Assembly: GCA_014730115.1 (NCBI GenBank)
Contig: WJIU01000026.1
Location: forward strand, 1-43,318
Direction: 5' to 3'
DNA length: 43,318 nucleotides
Source of the DNA: Microcaldota archaeon
Lineage (GTDB): Archaea > Micrarchaeota > Micrarchaeia > Anstonellales > Bilamarchaeaceae
Part shown: positions 3,318 to 8,841 of the stretch, one piece after another
Layout of the letters: each line of letters opens with the position of its first letter
Numbering within the stretch: the first letter of the stretch is position 1
Notes under the pieces: model-generated
The model's input: the letters and a program-made list of their open reading frames with translations, nothing else
Databases searched by the model: none
Told to the model about the DNA's origin: nothing
Position numbers and translations under genes: made by a program

Positions 3318-4218
3318 TTATTCGGTTTTTTCCAGAATGTCGAATACCCCCTCCACTGATTTGCTTTTCATTGTTTTTTCCCTGATTGAAGCTGCTTTTT
3401 TTACTCCTGCCATGAAGTGTATCGCCTTCATGCGGACATCCTTCTGCTCAGGCTCCCCGCGGTATCTGCGGTGTATCGAGACGTACTCCTCCAGCAGTGA
3501 TATCCTGTCCCCAAATGAGTCCGCCTTCCGGTTGCAGAATACAGGCGGGTTGGACATGGCAGCCCTTGCAATCATGAAGCCGTCGCAATAGCCCTGCTTT
3601 ACCATGTTTTCCCCCTGCCGGGAGGATGCAATGTCCCCGTTTCCCATTACTGGGATGTCAATGTTTTCCCTAATGATTCTGATGGTTTCCCAATCCGCGC
3701 TGTCCCGGTATCCCTGCCCAGTGGTTCTTGCATGGACAATTGCGAAGTCGGCGCCTGACTCCTGCACAGCCCTGCACAGCCCTGCACAGCTCCAGGGTTT
3801 CTCCCTGCCTGCCTGAAATTCTCAGCTTTACAGAAACCTTCCTGCTGGTGGCGTTTTTCATGCTTCTGACCGACTGCCCCACCAGCTCCGGCTCTGTCAT
3901 CATCGCACTTCCTGCCCCGCATTCTGTGATGCGTTCGGAGGGGCAGCCGCAGTTCAGATTGAACCAGGAGACAAAAGGGAAAGTCTCGTCAAGCAGGGCG
4001 GTGGCCCTGCCCAGCTCTTCCGGGCTGATTCCAAAGAGCTGGATTCCCAGGTTTTTTTCCTGCGGATGGGCATCAATTCTCTTCAGCTTGGAAATGTCCC
4101 TCAGGACCGAAGTGGAACTGACCAAGGGAATGCACGCTGCCTGCGCTCCGTATTCCTGGCAGAGCATGCGGAATGCAAAGTCAGAATACCCATGAATCGG
4201 GGCAAGGAATGCCTTCAT
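3318..4218 (-). pseudogene. tRNA-dihydrouridine synthase (Dus), frameshifted by a 10-bp repeat unit
   Basis: N-terminal part (4218 to about 3790) has PIHGYSDFAFRMLCQEYGA and NLNCGCPS; C-terminal part (3767-3318) has IVHARTTGQGY, IPVMGNGDI and DGFMIARAAMSNPPVF in another frame. The junction is the 10-bp triplicate at 3761-3790. Confidence 0.88.
3761..3790. repeat. Three perfect tandem copies of CCTGCACAGC inside dus
   Basis: cctgcacagc x3 read directly. Confidence 0.97.
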
Positions 4219-4250
4219 GCCAACAATAAAGAAAGAAAATTAGTAAAAAG

Positions 4251-4358
4251 CTACATCGGGAGCCTGTTCAAAAAGGGGGGTTTAAGGATGTAGTATCTGA
4301 GTCTGCGGTAACCGGTTTCTCGGACATGAGGCCCTATTGAAAGTATCTCAACATTCAT
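4251..4358 (-). CDS. Microprotein B, cassette 1 (35 aa)
   Basis: MNVEILSIGPHVRETGYRRLRYYILKPPFLNRLPM*; its ATG overlaps the stop of microprotein A as ATGA; homologous to the 7724-7849 ORF. Confidence 0.6.
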   Translation of the reverse strand: MNVEILSIGPHVRETGYRRLRYYILKPPFLNRLPM

Positions 4359-4459
4359 TGAGTTACCTCTGGTTCCTCGTATGCCCTGACCACCTTTCTG
4401 AGCTCTCCCATAACTCCGGTGACCCGGCTTATCATATTCACGGACTCATCCTCTCTCAT
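4355..4459 (-). CDS. Microprotein A, cassette 1 (34 aa)
   Basis: MREDESVNMISRVTGVMGELRKVVRAYEEPEVTQ*; GGTGG leader; same length as the paralogue at 7822-7926, 15/34 identical, with synonymous codon differences. Confidence 0.65.
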   Translation of the reverse strand: MREDESVNMISRVTGVMGELRKVVRAYEEPEVTQ

Positions 4460-4492
4460 CCAAACCACCCCGTTCTAATTAGGGGGTGTTTC

Positions 4493-4501
4493 ATATTTAT
4501 A
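4493..4501 (-). promoter_or_regulatory. TATA box of cassette 1 (TATAAATAT)
   Basis: 33 nt upstream of the 4459 ATG; identical 9-mer 32 nt upstream of the 7926 ATG. Confidence 0.6.
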
Positions 4502-4706
4502 TTTTATTGTGATTCCACTGTTCCAAAAGAACACCAATATTTAAACTTCACTGTAATAAATAACACAGAAATTGGATTTTATAATATCTACCACACTTTT
4601 TTTGTGACATCAAGCAGCAGAAATGTTTCATTCTGGACAACACAAACGTTTTAATGTTTTAATGTGACTTTTAAACCTGCAAATTTTTCAGCGAGAGGTG
4701 AAACAC

Positions 4707-5790: not shown

Positions 5791-6945
5791 ATGAAACTAA
5801 AAAAACCAAGGCTTAGAGAAATTCCAAAGCAGCCGGAGCCGAAAAAGAAAAAATGGCCGGCGGGCAAACTGTTGCTGTCCTTAGGGTTAGCTGCTACTGT
5901 AGGAATCTTGTCTCAAATTGGAAAATGTGACACAGGCCGAATACATACCGGAGAACAACCAAAAAAGGCTGAAAGCTCAACTCTGGTTGTTAAAAAACCA
6001 GAAGTCAAAATTCCACCAGCAAAAATTCAATTGGAGATGAAAGAACTAAATGCTGGCCTGCCCAATTTTAAAGAAGTTGATGTTCTAGTCGAGTCTTCAT
6101 TGAGAAAGACTGGTTCTCCTGCCTGTCCCTTCTCTTTAGGACCAAAAGAAACAGTGCCGGTAGTTCTTAAGGAGATAAAAAAGAAGTTAAATGACCATGG
6201 GTTTGATATAGCCTCTGCTAATAAAAACCCAGAAGAAATTTTTTACAGTCTGTTTTCATTCTATATGAAAAACAACGCCTGGATGATGATAAGGACTGCA
6301 AAAGTACGTAAGAGAGGGGCGCTCATCAGAACAGTTGGTTGTCTATTCAGGTTTCCCATAACCCGGAAGGCATCCCTCTCTTTTTCGTATTTTGATGGAA
6401 AGTTGTCTGCCACGAATGTACCTGTATTTTTCTTGGCAGGACAGGGCATACCAGAGCAAGGAGCATTTATGAGAGGCGTTGCCGTGAGACGCGGACTAAT
6501 GGTATTCCCGGAACTTCCAGAGCTGGGCGCTAAAATTGATCGGGAAAAACTCGCCTTTGACCTTACCATACACGAAGGTATCCATTATCATACTATGACT
6601 GGGGATAATGATTGGGGGTATGGTGAGTACGATTATGACAGGGGTGCTGATGCACCAGAACCAAAGTCGAAAACTCTGGCACGCCAAAGGGACGAGCTTA
6701 GGGCCTTTCTTATACAAACCATGTATGGTAATTATCCAGAGATGGCTTTTATGGCGATGTTGAATTCGGATTTCGAACAGTATGCCATCATTCGGAAATC
6801 CCTTCATGATTCTCTTGAGCATATCTTTAGCAGGAATCCCAGAAAATTAAGACTTTATAGGCTTGGACGTTTATCTAATAAACAAATAACTCCAGAGGAA
6901 ATGCGTGCAATTGCTTATGACGCTTATCTGAGGAACAAACTATGA
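5791..6945 (+). CDS. Membrane-anchored putative zinc metallopeptidase (HExxH)
   Basis: 384-aa ORF, N-terminal TM (KLLLSLGLAATVGILSQI), LTIHEGIHYHT motif; lower GC than its neighbours. Confidence 0.65.
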   Translation: MKLKKPRLREIPKQPEPKKKKWPAGKLLLSLGLAATVGILSQIGKCDTGRIHTGEQPKKAESSTLVVKKPEVKIPPAKIQLEMKELNAGLPNFKEVDVLVESSLRKTGSPACPFSLGPKETVPVVLKEIKKKLNDHGFDIASANKNPEEIFYSLFSFYMKNNAWMMIRTAKVRKRGALIRTVGCLFRFPITRKASLSFSYFDGKLSATNVPVFFLAGQGIPEQGAFMRGVAVRRGLMVFPELPELGAKIDREKLAFDLTIHEGIHYHTMTGDNDWGYGEYDYDRGADAPEPKSKTLARQRDELRAFLIQTMYGNYPEMAFMAMLNSDFEQYAIIRKSLHDSLEHIFSRNPRKLRLYRLGRLSNKQITPEEMRAIAYDAYLRNKL

Positions 6946-7027: not shown

Positions 7028-7732
7028 ATGAAAGTATTTGTATTGGCAGGAGGAGAAGGAACCAGGCTGAAGCCTTATACATACAATACCCCCAAGCCCA
7101 TGCTGGTGCTGGGAGGCAAGCCGATTCTGGAATACGTGCTGCAGAACATCAAGAAGGCAGGGTACAACGAAGTGGTCCTGACCGTAGGATACAAGCACGA
7201 GCAGATACAGTCCTATTTTGAGGACGGCAGCAGATTCGGCATGAACATAGAGTATGCGGTGGAAGGGGAGAGGCTGAATACCGCCGGCTCAATCCTGCCC
7301 CACAAGGACAAGGTTGATGATACCTTTGCGGTGGTCATGGGCGACCATCTTACCAACCTGGACCTTTCCGACATGTTTGAGCACCACAAGAAAAGCGGGG
7401 CGGCGGCCACCATTGCCCTGTTCAAGGATTCCATTCCTTTGGAATACGGTGTAGCTCATGTGGAGAACGGCAGCATCAGAGGATTCCAGGAAAAGCCCCT
7501 GCTGGAGAAGCTCTACAACACTGCCATCTACATTTTTGAGCCGGAGATATTCGAGCACATTCAGCCAAAAGAGGATTTTGCCAAGAACGTGATACCCCGC
7601 CTGCTTGCTGAAAACAGGAAAGTGTCTGCGTACGTTTTTGACGATGTGTGGTTTGACATAGGAAGGGTAAGCGATTACGAAAGATTTTCCGAGCTTTTCA
7701 GGGTAATAAAGCTGGTTGACGACCTACAGTAG
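7028..7732 (+). CDS. Sugar nucleotidyltransferase (NTP_transferase; glucose/mannose-1-P type)
   Basis: MKVFVLAGGEGTRLKPYTYNTPKPMLVLGGKPILEYVLQ signature. Confidence 0.93.
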   Translation: MKVFVLAGGEGTRLKPYTYNTPKPMLVLGGKPILEYVLQNIKKAGYNEVVLTVGYKHEQIQSYFEDGSRFGMNIEYAVEGERLNTAGSILPHKDKVDDTFAVVMGDHLTNLDLSDMFEHHKKSGAAATIALFKDSIPLEYGVAHVENGSIRGFQEKPLLEKLYNTAIYIFEPEIFEHIQPKEDFAKNVIPRLLAENRKVSAYVFDDVWFDIGRVSDYERFSELFRVIKLVDDLQ

Positions 7733-7849
7733 GTATTTTTCAAAGCCAGGATGCTGGACATGCAGCCTCAGCCACCTGAATGCGGAGTGCTTTGGCCTGA
7801 AAGAAGCCCTTACCTCCACATTCAGGGGCTTTCTGCCGTTTCCCCGCAT
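7724..7849 (-). CDS. Microprotein B, cassette 2 (41 aa from ATG 7849; homology begins at CTG 7825)
   Basis: MRGNGRKPLNVEVRASFRPKHSAFRWLRLHVQHPGFEKYLL*; aligns with cassette 1 ORF B from NVE onwards; overlaps ORF A out of frame. Confidence 0.55.
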   Translation of the reverse strand: MRGNGRKPLNVEVRASFRPKHSAFRWLRLHVQHPGFEKYLL

Positions 7850-7926
7850 TTTCTTGCCACCATCCCAAGCTCACCCATGATGCCTTTAACACGCCTTATG
7901 AGCCTGACCTCGTCCTCCTCTCTCAT
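7822..7926 (-). CDS. Microprotein A, cassette 2 (34 aa)
   Basis: MREEDEVRLIRRVKGIMGELGMVARKCGETAESP*; conserved leader CGGGTGGTTTG. Confidence 0.65.
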   Translation of the reverse strand: MREEDEVRLIRRVKGIMGELGMVARKCGETAESP

Positions 7927-7958
7927 TCAAACCACCCGTATATAATATGCAATATGAA

Positions 7959-7967
7959 ATATTTATA
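7959..7967 (-). promoter_or_regulatory. TATA box of cassette 2 (TATAAATAT)
   Basis: Identical to the cassette 1 box, near-identical spacing to the ATG. Confidence 0.6.
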
Positions 7968-8118
7968 TGTTTTTCCAAAAATACAGTGAAAATTACGTAT
8001 TTTTTCTCTAGATATTGTGAAATAAACATATGCTACAGAATTTTCCTAAGAAAGCAACCAACCAGAACCAGGATTTATCCTCAGTAGAATTATAAAGTGT
8101 TTTATTTAATGGTATATC

Positions 8119-8841
8119 ATGAAAAAATTTCTTTGCGCAGCAGCGCTGGCTGTGTCAATGGGCACAATGTCCTGCTATACTGTCATGGTCGAGCCGCTTA
8201 GGGCAGACAATATGAATACCCTGGAATCCCGGCAGCTTGGGCTCCGCAAGGGGAGGACAACCTTTGCGATGGCCGAGCAGATGATGAAGAAAAAAGGCCT
8301 TACCGGCATTGCCAGCGACCTGTACATACGTGACGGTCCTCTTTATCATGCACTTGCTGCCGATTACCAGGAAAAAATCCACATATTCCGGGATAACCGG
8401 TATGTGCAGTCCGTTCTTCTTGAGTCACAGGATACCCTGCCCTACGGATTTTCCCTGAGGTTCGCAGACAAGGGCGAACGCCTTTTTCTCATAGCATTGC
8501 ACCGCGACCCCATCGGATTTACCGAATTGTCCCAGAAGGCGGGGCCCCCCAGGATTGAATTCTTCCAGCTTTCGAACGGCTCTTTCCGCCATTCCCACAC
8601 CTATGGCATCGGGGCACTCTCCCGGAAGATGGGGGGGCTGACCCACCCCCATTTCGTGGGGCACAGCCTGGATGACGGCGTCCTTTTCATTGCCAGGACA
8701 AAGGAAGGCAGGGTGTGGGAATCAGCATTCAGGCTGAAGCTGGAGAATGAAAAGACGGGGATGTCCCCTGTTCCGCTAAGGGAGGCTGCGCGATGCTCGT
8801 GCATCCAGAATTATATTTACGGCCTAGATGTAGAGGAATAG
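8119..8841 (+). CDS. Putative lipoprotein, unknown function
   Basis: 240-aa ORF, signal peptide with GTMSC lipobox-like end. Confidence 0.75.
   Translation: MKKFLCAAALAVSMGTMSCYTVMVEPLRADNMNTLESRQLGLRKGRTTFAMAEQMMKKKGLTGIASDLYIRDGPLYHALAADYQEKIHIFRDNRYVQSVLLESQDTLPYGFSLRFADKGERLFLIALHRDPIGFTELSQKAGPPRIEFFQLSNGSFRHSHTYGIGALSRKMGGLTHPHFVGHSLDDGVLFIARTKEGRVWESAFRLKLENEKTGMSPVPLREAARCSCIQNYIYGLDVEE

Follow-up and report, generated by a model that had tools for sequence, protein, structure and literature searches.

The window, by which we mean the whole 43,318-nucleotide stretch of DNA analysed here, carries a short two-ORF cassette (cassette 1) on its minus strand. A TATA-type promoter (TAAAATATAAATAT; 4493–4506, minus strand) was read from the sequence; on this strand, TATAAATAT at 4501–4493 is followed by a 33-nt gap containing CGGGGTGGTTTG and then by the start of ORF A. 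ORF A (4355–4459, minus strand) encodes 34 aa plus a stop, with its ATG at 4459 and its TGA at 4357–4355, and is preceded by GGGGTGG. ORF B (4251–4358, minus strand) encodes 35 aa plus a stop in the -1 frame, with GAGGT as its SD; it runs from an ATG at 4358, which overlaps the end of ORF A as ATGA, to a TAG at 4253–4251, and was recognised by a profile search with an E value of 6e-16. The SD energies given throughout are those of duplexes with the 3' end of archaeal 16S rRNA, and they were -10.7 kcal/mol for ORF A and -7.2 kcal/mol for ORF B. A T-rich tract (4221–4250, minus strand) lies 3' of B, before dus, and may be an archaeal-type terminator.

All of the elements listed for this cassette in a preliminary description (the TATA box, the 33 nt, the 34-aa and 35-aa ORFs and the ATGA) match our reading of the minus strand. 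It had also stated that both ORFs are missing from the ORF list; ORFs of the length of A and B fall below a cut-off of 60 aa. In a shuffle control, two ATG-initiated ORFs of at least 34 codons occurred in 209 nt of the same composition at a frequency of about 2.5%. Since such a two-ORF layout arises in 2–3% of shuffles, the single locus is weak as proof, and the case rests on comparison.

A second homologous cassette, expected from the preliminary description about 3.4 kb away, was found at 7724–7926 on the minus strand, about 3.47 kb from cassette 1. Its promoter (AAACATATAAATATTTCATATTGCATATTA; 7943–7972, minus strand) is a conserved 30-nt element with a single match, at the cassette, in each of G000, G001, G005 and G012. 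ORF A of cassette 2 (7822–7926, minus strand; 34 aa plus a stop) has a dN/dS of about 0.15 against its counterpart in cassette 1. ORF B (7724–7849, minus strand) begins at an ATG inside A, in the -1 frame; it is much diverged and has lost the ILSVGP motif, and it was identified by the profile search (E 8.6e-10) together with its SD (-10.9 kcal/mol). The 3' ends of this ORF and of a convergent nucleotidyltransferase gene overlap at 7724–7732. A genome search detected no DNA-level copies in the window genome other than cassettes 1 and 2.

The preliminary description had proposed a search for homologues, and we searched 17 genomes of the genus with peptide A and 84 order-level and 302 phylum-level genomes with profiles. 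Family members were present in 13 of the 17 genus genomes, the window genome (G000) included, and none was found in G003, G004, G009 or G016; alba and dus adjoin in G009 with no cassette between them. The profile search of the 302 phylum genomes did not find the family outside the genus. Named contigs recovered through the neighbouring alba gene assign the window to Candidatus Micrarchaeota, and alba neighbourhoods in other Micrarchaeota contained neither A nor B. An order-level match in G053 (E 0.02) was treated as chance and disappeared with a larger profile, and a phylum-level match in G273 (E 0.002) was antisense to an ORF resembling a nucleoside diphosphate kinase. The family matched nothing in Pfam, NCBIfam, PHROGs, PADLOC, Rfam or annotated phages and plasmids, and a PDB sequence search gave no convincing match. 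Within the reach of these searches, the predicted product is an orphan microprotein confined to one Micrarchaeota genus; for this DPANN phylum, itself poorly understood, it is an additional protein family that had gone unannotated.

Comparison among these genomes revealed three forms of the gene. In the fused form, found in G001, G002, G005, G006 and G014, A and B make up one ORF of 59–72 codons (for example, MREEESVRMVSRVMGIQGQLGRVYEKPINVEILSVGPHYRETDYRSIYAELAKTPFGKKIPM in G005). In the split form, found in cassettes 1 and 2, G010, G012 and G013, the frame of B is shifted by -1 from that of A. Three of these copies, both cassettes and G010, have an A of exactly 34 codons, with a stop directly adjoining the B core. 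The third form retains a single half: G007, G008 and G015 have B with its own ATG and no recognisable A, and G011 has kept A without B. The latter locus (L036, 3885–3989) consists of segment A alone (MIRMVSRVNGIGGQLGRR...) upstream of dus, the converse of the B-only genomes. The segment A consensus is MREEExVRMVxRVxGVMGELG, followed by a variable linker, and that of segment B is NVEILSVGPxFRExDYRRLYxxIxxPPFxKxxPM. Because five relatives encode both segments in one continuous ORF, A and B are, on this comparative evidence, the N-terminal and C-terminal halves of one microprotein. This identity of the pair as a single microprotein in two parts is the new finding here, and the preliminary description had missed it.

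The start of B differs among the split copies. In cassette 2, G010, G012 and G013, a B-frame ATG is located at +77 or +74 from the ATG of A, inside A; cassette 1 has ATA at this site and an ATG at +101, so that the B starts of the other copies sit 24–27 nt upstream of the position in cassette 1. The ATGA overlap, whose conservation had been put forward as a check on the pair, is thus confined to cassette 1.

We then compared codons across the A core (22 codons) and the B core (32 codons). Mean pS exceeded pN in both (0.70 vs 0.33 for A and 0.78 vs 0.35 for B), and the difference vanished in the other two reading frames of the same DNA. Substitutions are thus mostly synonymous in both frames, in agreement with the earlier observation that differences between the cassettes are often so; together with the homologues, this supports the claim that two frames are translated. 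Individual dN/dS values are rough, as the sequences are short and the pairs are not independent; cassette 1 and G010 gave 0.21 for both A and B, and G012 and G013 gave 0.13 for B. Between G012 and G013, A gave a dN/dS of about 0.94 over 22 codons, which indicates no constraint; in this lineage, A may have begun to decay once the gene had split. Purifying selection on both halves was therefore found in the cassette 1/G010 lineage, with A unconstrained in G012/G013. Cassette 1 contained no Rfam family and no unusually stable RNA fold (z-score -1.3), in line with the earlier preference for coding sequence over a noncoding RNA.

Translation signals followed the form of the gene. The SD duplex before A ranged from -8 to -16 kcal/mol in all A-bearing copies. 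In the eight copies that are split or B-only, the values before the B ATG were -6.3 to -15.0 kcal/mol, and they were moderate in cassette 1 and G010. The downstream half thus has both a start codon and a ribosome-binding site of its own. In the five fused copies, the energies before the nearest in-frame internal ATG were only -1.7 to -5.4 kcal/mol and did not overlap the split and B-only range, and no SD was present at the former start of A in the three copies that retain B alone (+1.0 to -1.4 kcal/mol). The contrast between the split or B-only copies and the fused ones is what would be expected if B initiates independently in the split copies.

A TATA-like box was present upstream of A in every aligned homologue. 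A search for the 30-nt promoter element AAACATATAAATATNTCATANTGCATATTA, with up to 3 mismatches allowed, gave a single match in each of G000 (cassette 2), G001, G005 and G012, always at the cassette, and none in G011. Most homologous cassettes had T-rich tracts 3' of the stop. Wherever alba shares the contig, the cassette is on the strand opposite the alba-DUF92-nucleotidyltransferase cluster and points away from it; cassette 2 is located past this cluster and has the orientation of cassette 1.

One alternative is a leader peptide or attenuator of dus, the tRNA dihydrouridine synthase gene just downstream, as 7 of the 14 copies precede dus in the same orientation at a distance of no more than about 80 nt. 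However, the downstream gene is a different one (protein kinase-like, response-regulator-like or convergent) in G001, G007, G008, G013, G014 and cassette 2, T-rich tracts separate the cassette from dus in most copies, and conservation is at the codon level of a protein, which makes this explanation very unlikely. Given the conserved extended promoter and the variable downstream gene, the cassette is best seen as a small stand-alone gene of its own, vertically inherited, and not as a dus leader. The preliminary description had suggested a toxin–antitoxin-like pair. Like type II toxin–antitoxin modules, the cassette has an overlapping pair of small ORFs on one transcript (here predicted), and the cassette 1 products are acidic (A, pI 4.8) and basic (B, pI 10.4). 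B is, however, acidic in G012 and G008. Unlike those modules, the family occurs as a single chain in five genomes and as A-only and B-only forms; Pfam, NCBIfam and PADLOC yielded no match for it, and its constant chromosomal position and its absence from phages and plasmids give no sign of mobility. The coexistence of fused, A-only and B-only forms leaves the suggestion unsupported, and we regard a toxin–antitoxin function as extremely unlikely.

Two other explanations start from the fused gene itself. Programmed -1 ribosomal frameshifting could join A and B into the single protein of the relatives, with no separate B. The joined product would be a natural one, judging by the fused relatives, and B is at -1 in each of the five copies that are clearly split into A and B, yet none of these five contains a slippery X_XXY_YYZ heptamer where the ORFs overlap, the sequence of this overlap is not conserved, and B has its own ATG and SD, a start that is also found in the B-only genomes. 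We therefore consider frameshifting improbable. Slightly less improbable, though still unlikely, is that a fused gene has become a pseudogene in the split copies and is decaying there. Patchy retention (no member in four genus genomes and A alone in G011), the diverged B of cassette 2 and the unconstrained A of G012 and G013 would fit decay, but constraint acts on both frames between cassette 1 and G010 and on B between G012 and G013. Start codons, SD and promoter are also retained, and the exact 34-codon length of A in three split copies is not what decay would predict.

We consider gene fission the probable explanation, in which B restarted from its own ATG and SD, the two halves come from one mRNA and act together, and B is the core. 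An indel in the linker would have moved B to the -1 frame in the window species and some relatives, and B would then initiate at an ATG of its own, with its own SD, either within A or where A ends. One short mRNA would yield both halves; in cassette 1, termination–reinitiation at the ATGA may couple A and B, and elsewhere internal initiation would serve. As relatives make the two as one chain, A and B presumably act jointly as two chains of the same protein. B may be the core, indispensable part, as it survives alone more often than A. AlphaFold2 produced poor models of two fused members (13 and 18 sequences; pLDDT 56 and 50).

In an RpoB tree, G000 and G010 formed a clade (support 100/97) separate from that of G012 and G013 (100/99), and the fused G005, G001, G002, G006 and G014 were placed on other branches, with a weakly supported backbone. 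Single-gene trees of Alba and Dus gave no resolution. The simplest reading would be a fused ancestor of ~60–70 codons that was split two or more times, with a shift to -1 in both known cases. The fused form is likely to be ancestral, by parsimony rather than proof, and the weak RpoB backbone makes re-fusion possible, for example in G014. A fuller history, in which the gene split independently at least twice, the halves reassemble and some lineages later lost one half, is possible but rather less likely than not. The series in these relatives from fused gene to two overlapping ORFs to a single half makes gene fission at the smallest scale directly testable.

A GeneTack survey explained conserved frame-transition genes by translational coupling and documented this for larger genes (PMC3711429). 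As in those coupled genes, two parts of one family lie here in adjacent overlapping frames, and the downstream part has its own ribosome-binding site; unlike the named examples, which are ordinary-sized enzymes and transporters (PMC3711429), the whole protein here has 59–72 residues and the halves about 34 and 35–51. The family shares with archaeal small proteins of <70 residues, such as the Haloferax volcanii micro-proteins (PMC10716476), a size class that annotation misses. The characterised zinc-finger micro-proteins carry two C(P)XCG motifs (PMC10716476), whereas the present family lacks conserved cysteines and matches nothing in Pfam. Our results also call for caution, as short adjacent ORFs can be the halves of one protein and not a toxin–antitoxin pair.

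Beside or between the cassettes lie two ORFs with no Pfam match, at 5791–6945 (plus strand, 384 aa) and 8119–8841 (plus strand, 240 aa). The dus gene 3' of cassette 1 shifts frame at a tandem 10-bp repeat (3760–3799, minus strand), in which CCCTGCACAG occurs at 3770 and 3780 together with a partial copy; this is either a slip in the assembly or a genuine repeat that breaks the frame.
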